Source: Lachnospiraceae bacterium (GTDB lineage: Bacteria > Bacillota > Clostridia > Lachnospirales > Lachnospiraceae). From it: a stretch of 64,000 nt of DNA. The position numbers were made by a program, and so were the translations under genes. Shown piece by piece: positions 35,102 to 56,856 of this stretch. The notes beneath the pieces were generated by a model that had not been told where the DNA came from, did no database searches, and saw nothing but the letters and a program-made list of their open reading frames with translations. The DNA is taken from the NCBI GenBank assembly GCA_017476665.1, contig JAFUZJ010000058.1, positions 35,589-99,588 on the forward strand, given 5' to 3'. Within the stretch, counting starts at the first letter, position 1. Every line of letters begins with the position of its first letter.

Positions 35102-35830
35102 TTACTCATCCCAATTGTGATATACCGCCTGGACATCATCGTCCTCGTCCAGCATATCCAGGGTTCTCTGCAGATTCTTGATGGCGGTCTCATCCGTCAG
35201 CTCCACATAATTTTGCGGGATCATAGTAACTTCTGCACTCAGCATGGGAATCTTCGCATCCTCCAAGGCCTTACGCACTTCCTCAAAAGCATCCGGATCC
35301 GTCAGAATCTCATAACTGTCCTCTTCCTCCGCAAAATCTTCGGCTCCTGCATCCAAAGCCTGCATCATCAGATCATCCGCCTCCAGATCACATTCCTCCT
35401 TATCGATGATGATCTGTCCTTTTTTGTCAAACATAAAGGACACGCAGCCCGGAGTGCCGATATTTCCCTGTCCCTTGGTGAAAGCACTGCGCACATTCGC
35501 CGCGGTCCGGTTTTTATTGTCCGTCAAAGCATCCACAATGATCGCAATTCCGCTGGGTCCATACCCTTCATAGGTTACATATTCATAATTCACATTGCCC
35601 ACATCTCCCGCAGCCTTTTTGATCCCGCGTTCGATCGTATCGTTGGGCATGTTGTTCGCCTTTGCCTTTGCGATGACGGTGGCAAGTTTAAAATTATTGT
35701 TGGGGTCGGGACCGCCTTCTTTTACCGCAACGGCAATCTCACGTCCGATAATGGTAAATATCTTGCCCTTTGCGGCATCGTTTTTCTCTTTCTTATGCTT
35801 AATATTCGCAAATTTTGAATGTCCTGACAT
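35102..35830 (-). CDS. yebC: YebC/PmpR family transcriptional or translational regulator
   Basis: A 242-residue protein beginning [16 protein letters not shown], the classical YebC start, with [19 protein letters not shown] and [19 protein letters not shown]. Family members bind DNA or act on ribosomes at difficult sequences; which applies here is unknown. Length is typical. Its own promoter overlaps the end of the CNNM-type gene. Confidence 0.95.
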
Positions 35831-47707: not shown

Positions 47708-49012
47708 TCAGCCATTCATCTTACTGATCTGATCAATCGCATACAGAGGCAGATTAACAAGCCATTCTTCTTTTTTGTAATCTGCCATCGAAGTACGAAC
47801 TGATATTTCAGGTGAAAATTTTTCCTTATAGGTTTTCAGGCTCTTCGCTCTGAGATTGATCTCTGCCTTTACTTCCACCGGAATGATAGCTTCGCCTGTG
47901 TCAACCACAAAGTCAACCTCGCAGGAGCCTCTGTCATTGGTGTAGTAGTAAACGCCCAGATCCTCAATTGTTTTTAACTGCTGACAAACATACTGCTCGG
48001 TAAGCGCACCTTTAAATTCAGCAAAAAGATCATTGCCCTCGAGCAAAGTACGCTGACTGAGCCCGGTCATACAGCCCAGAAGTCCCACATCTACCAAAAA
48101 TAACTTAAATGCTTTCAAATCTTCATATGCACGCAATGGGATACCTGTGGAATTTACACGGCTGACCTTGTGAATAAGGCCACAGTCACTAAGCCACATA
48201 ATAGCCGTTTCATACTCTTTCGCTCTGGCGCCTTCCCGAACAAGCCCATAGATAAATTTTTTATTTTCTTTTGCCAACTGAGACGGAATACTATTCCACA
48301 ACATACGCAGTCTCGGAACCATCTCATTTGGAGCGTGCTTGGAAAAATCCTGCTCGTAAGCCGCAAGGATTCTCTTCTGTATTTTGCGGACCTCGTTAAA
48401 GTCTTTGTTCTCCGCAAAATTTTGTACAGCCTCCGGCATACCGCCGACATAATAATACTGTTTCAGCGCATCAATGTATGTTTGTTTAAAGCAATTGATC
48501 ATAGGGTATTCCTGCCAGTCAAGCAGACTTACAAAACGTTCCAAACCAATTGCCAGCAAAAACTCTCTGAATGAAAGCGGATAAAGCTTCAAAAAATCCA
48601 CCTTACCCACAGGGAAAGAAGTACCTTGATGCAAGGCAATACCGAGCAGGGAACCTGCACATACAATGTGATATTGCGGTGCATTTTCATAAAAATATTT
48701 TAAAGACGCCAACGCTCTTGGGACTTCCTGAACCTCGTCGAAAATAAGCAAAGAATTGTCAGGATCAATTTTTCGCCCTGCATATAACTCTAATCCCATG
48801 ATCAGGCGATCTGTATTCAGATCCATATCAAATAACTCTGCCATTCTGGAATGAGAATCAAAATTAATATATACAGTATCTGCATATGCCTGCCTGCCAA
48901 ATTCCTGCATCAACCATGTTTTGCCGACCTGCCGTGCACCTTCAATGACCAAAGGCTTTCGGACTTTGCTATTTTTCCATTTCAGAAGTTTTTCCATAGC
49001 AATTCGATACAT
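47708..49012 (-). CDS. AAA ATPase with DUF4143 domain
   Basis: A 434-residue protein. Walker A is GARQVGKTWL (about 24-33) and Walker B LLIFDEVQE (about 86-94), followed by the sensor region CAGSLLGIAL. The C-terminal part (about 200-400) has the DUF4143 pattern, with VDFVVDTGEAIIPVEVKAE resembling a PD-(D/E)XK nuclease core. Such ATPases are common in accessory regions and have no settled function. The start at ATG 49012 has GGAGG 7 nt upstream; the ORF is open further up through a noncoding-like AT-rich region with repeats. It follows a HEAT-like gene. Confidence 0.88.
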   Translation of the reverse strand: MYRIAMEKLLKWKNSKVRKPLVIEGARQVGKTWLMQEFGRQAYADTVYINFDSHSRMAELFDMDLNTDRLIMGLELYAGRKIDPDNSLLIFDEVQEVPRALASLKYFYENAPQYHIVCAGSLLGIALHQGTSFPVGKVDFLKLYPLSFREFLLAIGLERFVSLLDWQEYPMINCFKQTYIDALKQYYYVGGMPEAVQNFAENKDFNEVRKIQKRILAAYEQDFSKHAPNEMVPRLRMLWNSIPSQLAKENKKFIYGLVREGARAKEYETAIMWLSDCGLIHKVSRVNSTGIPLRAYEDLKAFKLFLVDVGLLGCMTGLSQRTLLEGNDLFAEFKGALTEQYVCQQLKTIEDLGVYYYTNDRGSCEVDFVVDTGEAIIPVEVKAEINLRAKSLKTYKEKFSPEISVRTSMADYKKEEWLVNLPLYAIDQISKMNG

Positions 49013-49080
49013 GCAATTACCTCCGCTATTGACATTCGCAACAATAATACATGTATAGTATGCCACATAAACGCAAAAAT

Positions 49081-49130
49081 TACAACGAACTTTTGTAATA
49101 ATATTACATTTTTTACAACGAACTTTGTCA
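49081..49130. repeat. Direct and inverted repeats upstream of the AAA/DUF4143 gene
   Basis: TACAACGAACTTTTGT (49081-49096) and TACAACGAACTTTGT (49114-49128) are near-identical direct repeats 33 bp apart. Between them is TGTAATA-a-TATTACA (49094-49108), a perfect inverted repeat. The 33-bp period (about three helical turns) fits a cooperative operator. Confidence 0.6.
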
Positions 49131-49178
49131 TCACAAACTCGATTCCTGCATTTCACAGCAACGGCACAGGTGAAATTT

Positions 49179-50282
49179 TTAGGGGTTACAAAAACAGATT
49201 CGCTGCTCTCTCCGGTCATAATCCCAGCTGTGATAAGAGCCGCCCTCACAGTATCTCCGTTCAGGGCAGGCAGAGCATTTTTCACTCTGTTCCGCTAACG
49301 ATGTCCTGAAAATTTGGAACCGCTCCGTCCACACCTGCTTAAAATCATCCCGAAAAATATTGCCCTGTATCGTCTCCGGTCTGCGCTCAATGTCCAGACA
49401 GGCGCCGATATCGCCGTTCGCCATAATGCTGGCGGTGTAGATCCCCGCATTGCACAGGAAATACCAGTCCCGTACCTCCCGCTCATAGTCAAGTCCCAGG
49501 AAATGGGAACAGCCGTAGGTCACCGGATACCCCTCCTGCCGTTTTGCCCGGATATAGTTAAGCATCTGCCGCTGTTCGGCATCGCTCAGCGCATAGCCCT
49601 CCAGCTCCAGCGCCCTGCCGATAGGCTCAATGCCAATGACCCGCCAGGAATCCACATCCAGGTCTAACATCAATTGAAACAATTCATCCAGACACCCCAG
49701 ACTCTTCTTCGTCACCACAGTGGTAACCTGAACCGCCTCAAAGCCTTGTTTCATGAGATTGCGCACGCCCTCCACTGTCCACGCAAATCCGTCCTTGCTG
49801 CGGCGGAATGCATTATGGATGGCTTCCGTCCCGTCAATACTCACGGAGATTGTACTCATTCCCGCAGTCTTCAGCCTTTTGGCCACCTCTTCTGTGATCA
49901 GAGTGCCGTTGCTGGTCATCCCCCAGGTAAACCCCAGCCTGTGAGCATACTCCATAATCTCAAAAAAATCCTGCCGCAGCAGGGGTTCTCCGCCGGTGAT
50001 ACACAACATGGGAAGCGCCTCTGCAAAGTCTGCTTTCACTTTGTCCAGGAAAGCATGATAGTCCTCCGTGGACAGTTCTGTCTTTGCTGTATCAGCATTG
50101 ATTTGACCGGACTGCCAGAAAGCCCGGTTCCCTGCCTCGCCGCAGCGGCTGCCGCAATGCAGGCAATTCTCATTACACCGCAGCGTCAACTCCAGAAAAA
50201 GTCTGCGCAGTCTTGGAGACCTGCGCAGCTGTTGCCTGTAATCATGTAATTGTTCCAAATGTTTTACTTTAATGCTTTCCAT
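49179..50282 (-). CDS. Radical SAM/SPASM peptide-modifying enzyme
   Basis: A 367-residue enzyme. The radical SAM cluster motif is C36-x3-C40-x2-C43, in TLRCNENCLHCGSRCG, followed by the GGEP motif (97-100) of the SAM site. The C-terminal SPASM region has C277, C295, C336, C339, C345, C363 and C365 for one or two auxiliary Fe-S clusters. SPASM enzymes modify peptides, sugars or proteins. The start at ATG 50282 (MESIKVKH) has GGGTGA close upstream. The gene follows the YGPP lipoprotein-like gene by 42 nt, making that product the obvious substrate. This fits the rSAM/lipoprotein pairing described in NCBI families; I could not check the match. Confidence 0.88.
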   Translation of the reverse strand: MESIKVKHLEQLHDYRQQLRRSPRLRRLFLELTLRCNENCLHCGSRCGEAGNRAFWQSGQINADTAKTELSTEDYHAFLDKVKADFAEALPMLCITGGEPLLRQDFFEIMEYAHRLGFTWGMTSNGTLITEEVAKRLKTAGMSTISVSIDGTEAIHNAFRRSKDGFAWTVEGVRNLMKQGFEAVQVTTVVTKKSLGCLDELFQLMLDLDVDSWRVIGIEPIGRALELEGYALSDAEQRQMLNYIRAKRQEGYPVTYGCSHFLGLDYEREVRDWYFLCNAGIYTASIMANGDIGACLDIERRPETIQGNIFRDDFKQVWTERFQIFRTSLAEQSEKCSACPERRYCEGGSYHSWDYDRREQRICFCNP

Positions 50283-50324
50283 AAAATCACCCAATATAGA
50301 TCAACCAATATAATATACTGCAAA

Positions 50325-50639
50325 TTACCGGAATACCTCCGGAGGGCCGTAGACCGTCGCTTCAAAATTACGCGAAGGATCGAAATCCGAGTCCTGCAAG
50401 AAGCTGCTTTCTATGCTCTCGCCGCTCTCTTCGTTTTCTTCGTTTTCTTCCTTTTCACCGCTATCTGCGGACGTCATCTCAGAACTTTCCACCTCTTCGG
50501 AAAGGTTCGTATGCTCCGACGTGGTATCCTCCGGCATATACATTCCTCCAGGCGGTCCGTAAGCACAGGCATTAAAATTCAACGCCGCCGTAAAAATCGT
50601 TCCAGCCAAAACTCCCTTTTTTAACAATCTCTTTTTCAT
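50325..50639 (-). CDS. YGPP-motif lipoprotein-like peptide, likely radical SAM substrate
   Basis: A 104-residue product starting MKKRLLKKGVLAG. A basic N-terminus and hydrophobic stretch (about 9-20) lead to Cys25 in NFNACAYGPPGGMYMP; the lipobox is imperfect (Phe at -3). An acidic low-complexity spacer (about 37-88) ends in the C-terminal TVYGPPEVFR, so YGPP occurs at 27-30 and 97-100. This two-motif layout with a Cys near the start is the pattern of a modified surface peptide or lipoprotein. The ATG at 50639 has GGGGAGGG 7 nt upstream. It sits directly before the SPASM enzyme. Confidence 0.82.
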   Translation of the reverse strand: MKKRLLKKGVLAGTIFTAALNFNACAYGPPGGMYMPEDTTSEHTNLSEEVESSEMTSADSGEKEENEENEESGESIESSFLQDSDFDPSRNFEATVYGPPEVFR

Positions 50640-50657
50640 CCGCAAGCCCTCCCCAGA

Positions 50658-51524
50658 TCATCCCTGTTCCAATTCCTCAAACGCCTGCCTGAAACATTCC
50701 TCCGGCACCTTCGGCCACACACATTTTCCGTATTTTCCCTTACAGAGTTCCATCGCCCTGTTCAGGACACTCCCATGGGTATGCTTCCCATTCCCGTTTC
50801 TAACCATATATTCTGTAAGTCTTGTCCAATAAGGCGCAATTTCAAATAACCCCTCCTGCCTCATTTCCTGAAAGATCCGTTCCGTATCCGCTTTCAGAAA
50901 TACAAATTCCGGTATCCATTTACCGTCATCGCCATGCAGGATCAGAAACCGAAATCCGTACGGCATATCGCTAGGCATCCCGACCGAACCCGGATTCCAG
51001 ATATGCTTTGTTCCTCTGGTGACTTCCGCTGTCCTGTGGGTATGTCCGCAGATAATATAATCCGCCTCAACCTCTGCCAACACTTCCTCAATCAGCTTAT
51101 CACTTTCCAAAAACTTCTCGTTTACCTTTCTCGGAGAACCATGGCAGATTACAATTTCCGGCATTCCCTCCAATTTTATTGTCAATGTGATCGGCAGATT
51201 TTTAAAAAATTCCAAGTCCCTTTGGGTGAGATGCGCCTCGGCATATCGAAGCATGCCAATTGTGCTGGGATACGCATCCCATTCCGGATGTCCCTGTCCC
51301 AACCCCATAAGCTGATAGTCTTCTTTGTTTCCCCTCAGGAAATAGCATCGTTTCTCTGCCTGCAGCTTATATATCATCTGCATTGTCTGCTCTATTCCGG
51401 GAAACTCCCCTGTATAATCCCCCAAAAAGAAAAAAGCATCAATATTTTTGTCTTCCAAATAATCTATACATGCCTCAAGCGCAAGGTGATTCCCATGAAT
51501 ATCGGATAAAACAGCTACATTCAT
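50658..51524 (-). CDS. Metallophosphoesterase (YfcE/MJ0936-like)
   Basis: A 288-residue protein of the calcineurin-like phosphoesterase family. Metal ligands appear in VLSDIHGN (about 5-12), LGDYTGE (about 32-38), RGNKED (about 65-70), ICHGSPRKV (about 122-130) and IICGHTHRT (about 155-163). It is cytosolic and likely hydrolyses a phosphodiester. The start at ATG 51524 (MNVAVLSDIHG) has AAAGGAGG about 11 nt upstream. It leads the operon with the lipoprotein-like gene 18 nt downstream and has its own strong promoter. A link to the radical SAM system is by position only. Confidence 0.85.
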   Translation of the reverse strand: MNVAVLSDIHGNHLALEACIDYLEDKNIDAFFFLGDYTGEFPGIEQTMQMIYKLQAEKRCYFLRGNKEDYQLMGLGQGHPEWDAYPSTIGMLRYAEAHLTQRDLEFFKNLPITLTIKLEGMPEIVICHGSPRKVNEKFLESDKLIEEVLAEVEADYIICGHTHRTAEVTRGTKHIWNPGSVGMPSDMPYGFRFLILHGDDGKWIPEFVFLKADTERIFQEMRQEGLFEIAPYWTRLTEYMVRNGNGKHTHGSVLNRAMELCKGKYGKCVWPKVPEECFRQAFEELEQG

Positions 51525-51566
51525 ATCAGAAGCCGCCTCCTTTGTTTCTTCTGACAAGTTTTTTCC

Positions 51567-51595
51567 ATTGTACCATATTTATGTAGTGCCCGCAA
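51567..51595 (-). promoter_or_regulatory. Sigma-A promoter of the metallophosphoesterase/YGPP/radical SAM operon
   Basis: Minus strand TTGCGG (51590-51595), 17-nt spacer, TACAAT (51567-51572), preceded by TGG that gives an extended -10 motif. It lies about 43 nt before the ATG. Confidence 0.7.
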
Positions 51596-51635
51596 TTGCC
51601 ACTGACTATCAAATGCATTAAACTGTCTCGGAGAA

Positions 51636-51677
51636 TAAAAATGCACCGCGCAACAGGCTTAGCCTTATGCGTGGTGC
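51636..51677 (-). terminator. Rho-independent terminator after icd
   Basis: Minus strand GCACCACGCA pairs with TGCGCGGTGC (10-bp stem, one G-U), with a nested AGGCTAAGCCT-type hairpin in the loop, followed by ATTTTTATT. It lies about 70 nt after the icd stop. Confidence 0.85.
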
Positions 51678-51747
51678 GTCCTATTTCGTTTTAAATTACT
51701 TTACGGCAGAATATTATATGCAACTGGCTATCTTACGCCTAGTTATC

Positions 51748-52956
51748 TTATAGCAGACTGTCAAGCGTCTCCCGGATCGCCTGAATAAACTCCAGACTGT
51801 TCAGGATCACGGGATTCTCACAGGTGGAGATTGTGGACAAACTTCTCGTCATCTTGCCGTCCTCCACGGTCTTGATGCAGGCCTGCTCCAGCTTATCCGC
51901 AAAGGTCATCAGCTCCGGGATATTATCCAGCTCACCGCGCTTTCTCAGCGCACCGCTCCACGCAAAGATCGTCGCGATAGAGTTGGTGGAGGTCTCCTCG
52001 CCCTTCAGGTGCTTGTAATAATGGCGCTGCACAGTCCCATGGGCAGCCTCATACTCATACACACCGTTCGGGGAAACCAGCACGGACGTCATCATAGACA
52101 GATCGCCGTAAGCCGTAGCCACCATGTCGGACATCACATCACCGTCATAGTTCTTGCACGCCCAGATGAAACCGCCCTCAGAACGGATCACGCGGGCCAC
52201 CGCGTCATCAATCAGCGTATAGAAATATTCGATGCCCAGCTCCTCAAATTTTGCCTTGTACTCGTTGTCGTAAATCTCCTGGAAGATATCCTTAAAGGTG
52301 TGGTCATACTTCTTGGAAATCGTATCCTTGGTGGCAAACCACAGATCCTGCTTGGTGTCAATGGCATAGCCGAAGCATGCTCTCGCGAAACTGGAAATAG
52401 ACTTCTCCGTATTATGGATTCCCTGAATGATACCTGCACCGGTGAAATTGTGGATCAGCTCTCTGGTCTCAGTGCCGTCCTCTGCGGTAAATACCAGCTC
52501 TGCCTTGCCGGGACCGGGCACCTTGATCTCTGTGTTTTTATAAACATCGCCGTAAGCGTGACGTGCGATCGTAATGGGTTTCGTCCATCTGCTCACATAA
52601 GGAGTGATTCCCTTCACCAGGATCGGCGCACGGAACACGGTGCCGTCCAAGATGGCACGGATCGTCCCGTTAGGGCTCTTCCACATCTCTTTCAGATTAT
52701 ATTCGGTCATTCTCGCCGCATTGGGAGTGATGGTCGCACACTTTACTGCCACACCGTACTTCAGGGTAGCATTGGCGGAATCCACGGTCACCTGATCGTT
52801 GGTCTCATTTCTATGCTCTAAGCCCAAATCATAATACTCTGTCTTCAGATCAATATAGGGGAGCAACAGCTCGTCCTTGATCATCTTCCAGAGGATTCTG
52901 GTCATCTCGTCTCCATCCATCTCCACAAGAGGGGTTGTCATCTGAATCTTTGCCAT
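51748..52956 (-). CDS. icd: NADP-dependent isocitrate dehydrogenase
   Basis: A 402-residue enzyme that converts isocitrate to 2-oxoglutarate with NADP+. The start [23 protein letters not shown] and the segments [24 protein letters not shown] (as [24 protein letters not shown]) and [19 protein letters not shown] belong to the eukaryotic-like/subtype II branch rather than the E. coli type. Metal-binding aspartates are in the latter segment. ATG 52956 has GAAAGGAAA upstream; an in-frame start 27 nt earlier is less likely. It follows the GntR gene and the citrate-synthase-like gene, so citrate to 2-oxoglutarate synthesis is encoded together, minus aconitase. Confidence 0.93.
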
Positions 52957-55290: not shown

Positions 55291-56856
55291 TCATACTTTT
55301 CCTTTAAAAACACAGAATACCCCGCCCAAAAAGCAAAATGCGGAAATGCACCACACAAAAACAGCAGGCACACCGCGCCCGTCCGTAAGCCCTGTCGTCT
55401 CCGTTCCGGCAGAATTTGCAGTCAATGACTGCAGCTGAACGCTCTCTTCCAGCGCGTCTTCCGAAAATACATCACCCTCATACTGAATATCCATAATATG
55501 GCAGCCTGCAAATGCTCTGTCGTTGATCGTCTCCAAAGATGCAGGCAGCTCTATCCTGCTGATCTCCTTATGATCCGCAAACGCCTCTCCTGCGATCACC
55601 CGCACCCCATCCGGCACCTGAACCTCCTGTGCCGAACCGCGATAAGCGATCAAAACACCGCCGCTGATCAGGAAATCAGGTTCCAACGGATCCTGACCCG
55701 CCAGGAAGCGATCCACCCACGCAGTGTGCGCAAACGCCTTGGCCTCTACGCTGGTTACCGTTTCCGGGAGCACAACTTCTGTCAGTCCGTCGCAATGATA
55801 AAACGCTGCGTAATCAATCTGTTCCAAACCATCCGAAAAACGAGCCTCCTGCAGCCCGCTTCTGGCATAAGCAAACTGTTCGATCTCTTTCACATTCTCA
55901 GCAAACGACACACTGGTACAAGTCTCATCCCGATAATGCGTTCTCTCAGGGATCAGCCCCTGATGCACTTCTGATTCCGCCATATTAGCCACATCCCCTG
56001 CTGTATATGAAGCACTATCCTCTTTTCCGTCGTTGCCGTTCCGTACAGACATATCAGAATTCTGCATAAACACAAAGGCCTGATTCGCCACAATATGACT
56101 GCTTCCCACCACCGTTCCGGGAACATCCTGCACAGAACCCGAGCCTGTCTGACCGCTGTTATCTCCCGTCTGCGGCTGCACGTCCGCCCCTGAATAAACA
56201 CCGTCTGCCGGGATCGTAGACGGAAGTTTTATGATCTGATCTCCGGTTCCTGTGCCTGAACTTCCGATTCCGCTCGTATTCCCGTACACAGACATTTTCT
56301 TCTGGCGCTCATAAAACAGCTTTGCATATTTATCCGCATAACTGCCTTCTTCACAATGGATATTCAAAAGGTAATCTCCGTCGAAGGAATCCTCTCTGAT
56401 CTCCACAACCTGCGACGGAATGGTAATATCCTCAAAACATTTACATTCCGAAAAAGCCTGTATTCCGATACTGTGTACTGTTTCAGGAAGGGTCATCGTC
56501 TCCAGGCCGGTGCAGTTTGTAAACGCGAAGTCCCCGATGGAAGCCAGACCTTTCCCCAGCGTTACCGTGCGCAGATTATCACATCCCCAGAAAGCGTAGG
56601 CTTTGATCTGTTCCACAGAATCCGGCAATATGATCTTTTCCACATATGTATTATTTTCAAACGCACTTTTACCGATCACGGTAACCGTATCGGGAACCGT
56701 GACTACCGCATCTTTTCCTGTGTACTTTACCAATTCGCCACGCTTGATACTAAAAGCGGAGGCTGACGTCTCTGCATCTGCCTCCGCCGCAGGAATCAGC
56801 ATAACAAGCAGTGCGACTATGATCAAGAAAGCACCTAAGACCCGACTTTTGCCCAT
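55291..56856 (-). CDS. BspA-like leucine-rich repeat surface protein
   Basis: A 521-residue protein. An N-terminal signal (about 7-27) precedes two blocks of BspA-type repeats: about 60-160 (SAFENNTYVEKIILPDSVEQI, AFWGCDNLRTVTLGKGL) and about 310-470 (AFYHCDGLTEVVLPETV). A Gly/Ser-rich segment (about 195-260) lies between. One C-terminal hydrophobic segment (about 498-516) with a basic end may anchor it; no LPXTG-like motif is visible. Such repeats bind ligands or host surfaces. The ATG has GGAAGGG upstream, and the large LRR gene ends 30 nt before it, so both may be cotranscribed. Confidence 0.82.
   Translation of the reverse strand: MGKSRVLGAFLIIVALLVMLIPAAEADAETSASAFSIKRGELVKYTGKDAVVTVPDTVTVIGKSAFENNTYVEKIILPDSVEQIKAYAFWGCDNLRTVTLGKGLASIGDFAFTNCTGLETMTLPETVHSIGIQAFSECKCFEDITIPSQVVEIREDSFDGDYLLNIHCEEGSYADKYAKLFYERQKKMSVYGNTSGIGSSGTGTGDQIIKLPSTIPADGVYSGADVQPQTGDNSGQTGSGSVQDVPGTVVGSSHIVANQAFVFMQNSDMSVRNGNDGKEDSASYTAGDVANMAESEVHQGLIPERTHYRDETCTSVSFAENVKEIEQFAYARSGLQEARFSDGLEQIDYAAFYHCDGLTEVVLPETVTSVEAKAFAHTAWVDRFLAGQDPLEPDFLISGGVLIAYRGSAQEVQVPDGVRVIAGEAFADHKEISRIELPASLETINDRAFAGCHIMDIQYEGDVFSEDALEESVQLQSLTANSAGTETTGLTDGRGVPAVFVWCISAFCFLGGVFCVFKGKV

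Follow-up and report, generated by a model that had tools for sequence, protein, structure and literature searches.

A proposed two-gene radical SAM module with xYGxP partner proteins in a Lachnospiraceae bacterium: a candidate for tyramine splicing

What does a radical SAM enzyme do beside a small lipoprotein-like peptide that carries the motif YGPP twice? The question is raised by a locus in contig JAFUZJ010000058.1 of a Lachnospiraceae bacterium (assembly GCA_017476665.1), of which positions 35,589 to 99,588 were analyzed, a stretch of 64,000 nucleotides referred to here as the window. Genes for a metallophosphoesterase, a 104-residue peptide and a radical SAM enzyme lie close together there on the minus strand. 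A first-pass annotation had described the three-gene cluster and its peptide, with AYGPPGG directly after Cys25, an acidic spacer and the end TVYGPPEVFR, and the sequence bears this out, the full order being MKKRLLKK, a hydrophobic stretch, FNAC, AYGPPGG, the acidic spacer and TVYGPPEVFR. The enzyme was likewise described correctly, with its CX3CX2C motif (CNENCLHC) and eight cysteines from residue 258 on where at least seven had been announced. It matches the Pfam families Radical_SAM (PF04055, 75.8 bits) and SPASM (PF13186, 32.5 bits), both above cut-off, and thus has the motif and the domain that mark a SPASM radical SAM enzyme.

The answer that emerges is one of graded strength. Enzymes of this type are paired with small proteins across genomes, these partners share a motif on several scaffolds, the motif has decayed together with the enzyme in one case, and within a limited sample the enzymes group with the TIGR04103 family. 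Tyr-Gly is very probably the modified site. The best explanation, to which we give about half of our confidence, is a two-gene protein-editing module with tyramine splicing at x-Tyr-Gly-x-Pro (xYGxP).

Pairing of the enzyme with xYGxP partners

Relatives were collected from 299 genomes of the family, searched with the enzyme itself (18 matched at E up to 1e-40), and from 391 genomes of the class, searched with an alignment, A1 (21 matched at E up to 1e-50, including three repeats). The 34 loci compared below comprise the family matches except genome G266, 13 class matches, three plasmid-borne TIGR04133 loci (Parabacteroides, Treponema and Phocaeicola) and one contig from a viral collection; viral contigs yielded no relative with the L148 enzyme as the query and one with A1. 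Outside this set lie six weaker class matches (L130-L135) and G266 (L096), whose 525-residue divergent radical SAM enzyme (L096 6701-8275) has a C-terminal extension that by eye resembles a JAB-type metalloprotease.

Of the 18 family genomes, 14 encode a small protein next to the enzyme that carries YG.P or YGPxP; in G120 the YG partner lies on another contig, and in G189 LYAPP stands beside a frameshifted enzyme. The 13 new class matches, all under 1e-100, have adjacent YG.P in 11 cases; G659 has EYAPP adjacent and MYGSP one gene further, and G676 has AYGID. Counted over small flanking open reading frames (ORFs; same strand, up to 350 residues, within 400 bases of the enzyme gene or slightly overlapping it), YG.P occurs 68 times at the 34 loci and the reversed P.GY twice. 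By regular expression YG.P is found in such an ORF at 27/34 loci, with 26 real partners and one locus, G092, counted only on account of an unrelated ORF (its actual partner has IYGPMP); with YGPxP included, a real adjacent partner is present at 29/34. As a control, the neighborhoods of 20 other radical SAM genes, out of 21 listed for the window's own genome, together gave one YG.P and one P.GY. A composition shuffle, with a mean of 1.1 against the 68 observed, was confined to ORFs preselected for the motif and is not counted as evidence.

At the DNA level, a pattern for VYGPPE matched 31 times in 13 of the 299 family genomes, that is, in 8/18 enzyme-bearing and 5/281 other genomes (p = 3e-8), and clustered repeats occurred in 7/18 and 0/281, respectively; the backward-read control gave 20 matches in 19 genomes. 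Of the six matches in the five enzyme-less genomes, one lies in a 613-residue ORF and the others in chance-like frames of 47-117 residues. YGPP in itself is common; the unusual point is that it is conserved next to enzymes of this family. The window's own genome encodes it at 14 places, against 42 for the backward-read control; leaving aside the peptide's own two, they fall in three AAA+ Walker A motifs, one 388-residue ORF or frames of at most 139 residues, and no further substrate was seen among the 14. The first-pass annotation had held that enzyme and partner co-occur and that YGPP is the conserved part, naming partners mostly without an enzyme, or a poorly conserved YGPP, as outcomes that would tell against it. 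The excess of 68 over 2 agrees with its expectation, and neither outcome was found. Co-occurrence and conservation together make modification of YGPP, perhaps at both ends of the peptide, the leading reading; a second genus (L142 and L143) shows the two-ended architecture too, its sites standing at a lipobox-like cysteine and at the C-terminus.

The motif was characterized from 80 curated sites at 33 loci, obtained from 82 matches to the expression Y[GA][PVSTMIA][PDMKA] by removing six spurious matches and adding four by hand, so that Tyr and the following G/A are fixed by construction and positions +2 and +3 partly so. With that limit, Gly follows Tyr in 78/80 sites (only G or A being allowed), and proline occupies the partly fixed positions +2 and +3 in 71/80 and 73/80; the residue before Tyr is Val in 57/80 and position +4 is E, P or S in 63/80. 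Nine sites have S, V, T, M or I in place of the +2 proline. A cysteine stands at −2 of the Tyr in 18/80, including sites remote from any lipobox.

The peptide itself is lipoprotein-like, with a charged N-terminus and a hydrophobic stretch. Position −3 of a lipobox is usually L, V or I; the Cys25 that had been called lipobox-like is present and directly precedes AYGPPGG, but its lipobox, FNAC, is a loose one with F at −3. A loose regular expression of our own making accepts the window peptide and 18 others among the 34 loci, and on manual reading, with three internal-Cys cases excluded and G475 added, YG follows a lipobox-like cysteine within three residues at 12/34 loci, the window arrangement included. 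The peptide has no NCBIfam match, TIGR04134 included, and no Pfam match above cut-off; a TIGR04134 search gave no match in its own genome or in any of 14 control genomes and is hence uninformative. Searches with the peptide alone retrieved a single relative among genome contigs, an identical one, and matches at E up to 0.1 in 49/299 family genomes, weak except in its own. Peptide homology is short-ranged, and partners were located via the enzyme. When ORFs of 40-140 residues within 600 bases of the enzyme were grouped by sequence, the peptide fell together with partners from 14 other loci, every one with YG; beyond this group, sharing was limited to the zinc-ribbon partners of L092/L095 and the membrane proteins of L146/L147.

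The partners are built on several scaffolds, not on lipoproteins alone. Lipoprotein-like partners carry one to seven sites (seven in L088, and seven across two genes in L081), and partners of TIGR04134 type occur at L148 (52.3 bits against a cut-off of 39.8), at L151 and L152 (so annotated) and at L153 (by likeness); in such or similar lipoproteins of Bacteroidota and Treponema the motif reads EYGSP, CYGMP or EYGTP. Other partners are DUF805 membrane proteins with motif-bearing tails (L086, 59.7 bits; L097, 68.2 bits), small membrane proteins (L146, L147) and zinc-ribbon proteins, identified by Pfam in L093 and L095 and by eye in L092 and L156, in which two ribbons flank the motif. The zinc-ribbon partners occupy two separate places of the enzyme tree, which suggests an exchange of scaffolds around a retained motif.

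One locus links the motif to the state of the enzyme. The CX3CX2C stretch is missing from the enzyme at L094 (G041), whose GGEP reads GAEP, and the neighboring protein ends NINQPRSGPPEMAG where its relative at L097 reads NMEVTVYGPPEMMNG (alignment by eye); VYGPP has become RSGPP, with Val-Tyr gone. This apparent co-decay, a single case, ties the tyrosine to a working enzyme. L087 pairs a frameshifted enzyme with a YAPP neighbor, yet YAPP also adjoins the intact L146 enzyme.

Relation to TIGR04133 and to spliceases

That radical SAM enzymes paired with small lipoproteins form described NCBI families is correct (TIGR04133, rSAM_w_lipo, and TIGR04134, a pair type already in NCBIfam without an assigned function), but the window enzyme fits only below the cut-off and the peptide does not fit at all. 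TIGR04133 is the enzyme's best NCBIfam match (275.4 bits, 150 below the cut-off of 425). In the tree that retains long-branch rows, 32 enzymes of this group fall on one side of a branch (support 100/99), including members above the cut-off from Parabacteroides (607.9 bits), Phocaeicola (617.5 bits) and Treponema (451.4 bits). The TIGR04134 lipoproteins carry xYGxP at or soon after a lipobox-like cysteine, as does the window peptide, which differs from them in having two YG sites.

Beyond its own group, the window family resembles the spliceases. PlpXY is reported to excise tyramine at an XYG site without needing a leader (PMC10533398, PMC11002830), to accept short, leader-independent tags such as GPIRPLYGLPI (PMC10533398) and to represent a modification called widespread in nature (PMC11002830); protease inhibitors are described among spliceotide products (PMC11117315). 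With the frameshifted L087 and degenerate L094 enzymes left out of all trees, and three long-branch rows left out of the second, a tree of 49 enzymes separates 42 of the TIGR04133 and TIGR04103/TIGR03913 groups from the seven others (support 97/91). The signature CxxxCxHCGS is present in 32/32 enzymes of the TIGR04133 group and in 10/10 of the TIGR04103/TIGR03913 group (one of them, from Agathobacter, assigned there by tree position), and in 0/10 other enzymes. A plasmid search with the L148 enzyme points the same way, TIGR03913-type enzymes and Nostoc TIGR04103 enzymes coming next after TIGR04133, ahead of MftC and PqqE, among the 60 of 271 records listed. The proposed substrates are alike as well: the Nostoc TIGR04103 (nif11-class peptide radical SAM maturase 3) precursor ends GGRGSIALYGLPPELF, and its IALYGLPPELF end resembles the VYGPPEVF of the window and VYGPPEWF, with XYG followed by Pro in both systems and AYG and VYG in the window peptide.

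TIGR03913 ("GDL motif peptide") maturases fall on the side of TIGR04103 in the tree, adjacent to the TIGR04133 group, and several of their DUF1843 partners have YG near the start (RPYGPAM, KPYGVAI, LYGGAM); they differ in the DUF1843 scaffold, in partners with YA or YM in place of YG and in having no proline rule. At L154, L159 and L167, TIGR03913 enzymes adjoin tandem DUF1843 peptides, possibly a related system. Five of the six weaker class matches also fall on the TIGR04103 side (tree with long-branch rows). Repeated-YG partners (KYGYPCG, KYGVP, PLYGIEP) are encoded beside four of these six, and none was seen in the short flanks of the other two; such multi-YG proteins (KYGVP/YGIP, PLYGIEP, KYGYPCG) beside TIGR04103-like enzymes of Clostridia are candidates for multi-site splicease substrates in their own right.

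Several observations weigh against a splicease assignment. PlpX was elucidated through coexpression with PlpY (PMC11002830), whereas no match to the 71-residue neighbor of the Nostoc enzyme, which holds the place of PlpY, was found by tblastn at E up to 1 within 3 kb of the 34 enzymes. Nor was a PlpY-like small ORF (40-140 residues) found to be widely shared beside them, although a very divergent one could escape, and no Nif11/NHLP leader was found. The window-type SPASM domain lacks, by alignment, the last cysteine of the CX2CX5CX3C of TIGR04103, and the window partner is lipoprotein-like. Profile scores do not single out TIGR04103, which ranks 11th for the window enzyme (94.9 bits against a cut-off of 725), below the heme b synthase AhbD (141.8), NirJ2 (134.1) and MftC (116.7). 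The tree has few outgroups, mostly taken from plasmid matches, and with the three long-branch rows kept the support for the TIGR04103 grouping falls to 85/58. The comparison takes the PlpX subclass, IPR026482, to be TIGR04103. A structure model of the enzyme from a three-row alignment (mean predicted local distance difference test score, pLDDT, 49.5) was too poor to use. Among the 80 sites, two read YAPP and one YGID, and +3 is A four times and K and M once each; in the 15 kb of sequence retrieved, the divergent G266 enzyme lacks a YG.P partner.

Candidate chemistry and rival explanations

In the proposed mechanism, the SPASM enzyme would recognize a short local motif, x-Tyr-Gly-x-Pro (AYGPP and VYGPPE in the window peptide, the residue before Tyr being mostly Val elsewhere), in an export-bound and probably lipid-anchored partner, with no need of a conserved leader, recognition protein, or nearby protease or transporter gene. 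It would act on the Tyr-Gly of both sites before export, and the candidate reaction, at roughly even chances given the likeness to the spliceases, is excision of tyramine (C8H9NO) to leave a ketoamide. The acidic spacer would then display the electrophilic ketoamide groups on the cell surface, with the capture of proteases or amines as a speculative role. Generalized to the family, the proposal is that TIGR04133-type enzymes form a leaderless, PlpY-independent branch of the spliceases that edits membrane-anchored and cytosolic proteins rather than secreted peptides, with one ketoamide per xYGxP and up to seven per protein, on lipoprotein, DUF805 and zinc-ribbon substrates in Bacillota, Bacteroidota and spirochaetes; we hold this broader form at a little under even confidence.

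Crosslinking is common among SPASM enzymes, and the tyrosine might be crosslinked rather than excised, through a C-C or C-O bond to a nearby residue with the loss of 2 Da per site, as a three-residue cyclophane, a PqqE-like Glu-Tyr or an MftC-like Val-Tyr bond. The Val before Tyr (57/80) and the E, P or S at +4 (63/80) would suit such a bond, and the window enzyme scores higher with MftC, a SPASM enzyme reported to join Val and Tyr (PMC8326336), than with TIGR04103 (116.7 against 94.9 bits). MftC, however, is described as acting on a C-terminal Tyr (PMC9062424), has MftB encoded adjacent to it and lacks the HCGS signature, and the tree places the window family with TIGR04103 and apart from MftC and PqqE. 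No residue other than Y, G and the prolines is conserved as a possible bond partner, and the +2 proline would be an unusual cyclophane partner that is moreover replaced in 9/80 sites. We regard crosslinking as unlikely, though worth keeping in view.

That same lack of an evident crosslink partner, with Gly after Tyr in 78/80 sites (G or A only by construction), would also suit another change at a single Tyr or Gly, such as epimerization, β-hydroxylation, Cα-Cβ cleavage or backbone scission; nothing was seen that links the family to an epimerase or hydroxylase, and its closest sampled relatives have splicease-like XYG precursors, which makes this improbable. YGPP could, finally, be a docking or assembly motif for an enzyme that modifies something else or makes a small molecule, given that unrelated proteins contain YGPP as well (AAA+ Walker A) and that the product of the family is not known. 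A docking role fits poorly with up to seven motif copies per locus on unrelated scaffolds and with the loss of the motif beside the degenerate L094 enzyme, and we consider it very improbable.

Locus features, neighboring genes and significance

The features of the window locus, and genes noted at related loci, are collected in Table 1.

Table 1. Positions of the module's genes and sites in the window, and of selected genes at related loci
Feature	Sequence	Positions	Strand	Remark
Metallophosphoesterase gene	window	51524-50658	minus	stop at 50658
104-residue lipoprotein-like partner, proposed substrate	window	50325..50639	minus	ATG at 50639, stop at 50325
Radical SAM/SPASM enzyme, 367 residues, TIGR04133-like	window	49179..50282	minus	ATG at 50282
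CX3CX2C motif of enzyme (CNENCLHC)	window	50154..50177	minus	inside longer signature CNENCLHCGSRC
SPASM-region C-terminal cysteines	window	49188..49511	minus	C258, C277, C295, C336, C339, C345, C363, C365
Cys25 codon of peptide	window	50565..50567	minus	lipobox-like FNAC, weak; from sequence
Peptide site 1, AYGPP	window	50550..50564	minus	
Peptide site 2, VYGPPE	window	50337..50354	minus	near C-terminus; commonest residues of family motif
Short-chain dehydrogenase-like gene	L082	6653-7423		
Short-chain dehydrogenase-like gene	L139	6250-7047		
Short-chain dehydrogenase-like gene	L140	8494-9300		
Short-chain dehydrogenase-like gene	L141	8740-9546		
Multi-YG protein	L131	269-1279		
Multi-YG protein	L132	2578-2823		
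Multi-YG protein	L133	2635-2946		
Multi-YG protein	L135	404-1411		same as L149 5282-6289

The metallophosphoesterase, which had been put forward as an accessory, is rejected as a part of the module: tblastn at E 1e-5 found it in none of the 36 flanking regions of relatives, whereas the same search with the enzyme found 34 of them (two, L097 and L098, having been chosen by partner pattern rather than by enzyme). It is kept in the near-identical metagenome-assembled genome Lachnospiraceae bacterium UBA3821, which has the same gene order, an identical peptide and a 99% identical enzyme. The promoter said to drive all three genes finds no support, a scan of 49000-51750 finding none on the minus strand upstream of the phosphoesterase; its six promoter-like sites compare with 4.0 (sd 1.9) in shuffles, and two of them are on the minus strand, one within the phosphoesterase gene (51080-51052) and the other within that of the enzyme. 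A short way downstream of the enzyme gene the window encodes an AAA_14/DUF4143 ATPase (47708-49015, minus strand, by Pfam), which had no match at E 1e-5 in the relatives' flanks and one at 0.002 (L144). Further off, a 521-residue ORF (55291-56856, minus strand) resembles by eye a leucine-rich-repeat surface protein that has a hydrophobic anchor at its C-terminus.

When ORFs of at least 90 residues were clustered over 30 flanking regions, only the clusters of the enzyme (30), of partners (6) and of short-chain dehydrogenase-like proteins (5) reached more than three regions; protease and exporter genes kept beside the precursor, as in a classical secreted cluster for ribosomally synthesized and post-translationally modified peptides, were not among them. 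In four genomes, three from one family and one from another, the short-chain dehydrogenase-like gene immediately follows that of the enzyme, and it is conceivable that it encodes a ketoreductase for a keto product. The zinc-ribbon variant at L092 (1652-8080) sits, by eye, amid WXG100-type and FHA/kinase-like genes, perhaps a type VII secretion setting.

In the open-licence literature searched, no paper was found with TIGR04133, TIGR04134, "YGPP motif" or "SAM-associated putative lipoprotein", and the 2022 and 2024 splicing papers may already cover the family. As far as these searches go, what is new is the xYGxP target common to the partners, its occurrence on unrelated scaffolds, the co-decay and the link to spliceases, part of which the 2022 article on widespread splicing may already contain. 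For a pair of NCBI families that has a name but no function, the analysis proposes a target site, a candidate chemistry and a mass change open to test. Should the reaction indeed be splicing, the short motif would offer a new leaderless tag for protein labeling, and common anaerobes, including gut Bacteroidales, would bear genetically encoded electrophilic ketoamides on their membrane proteins.

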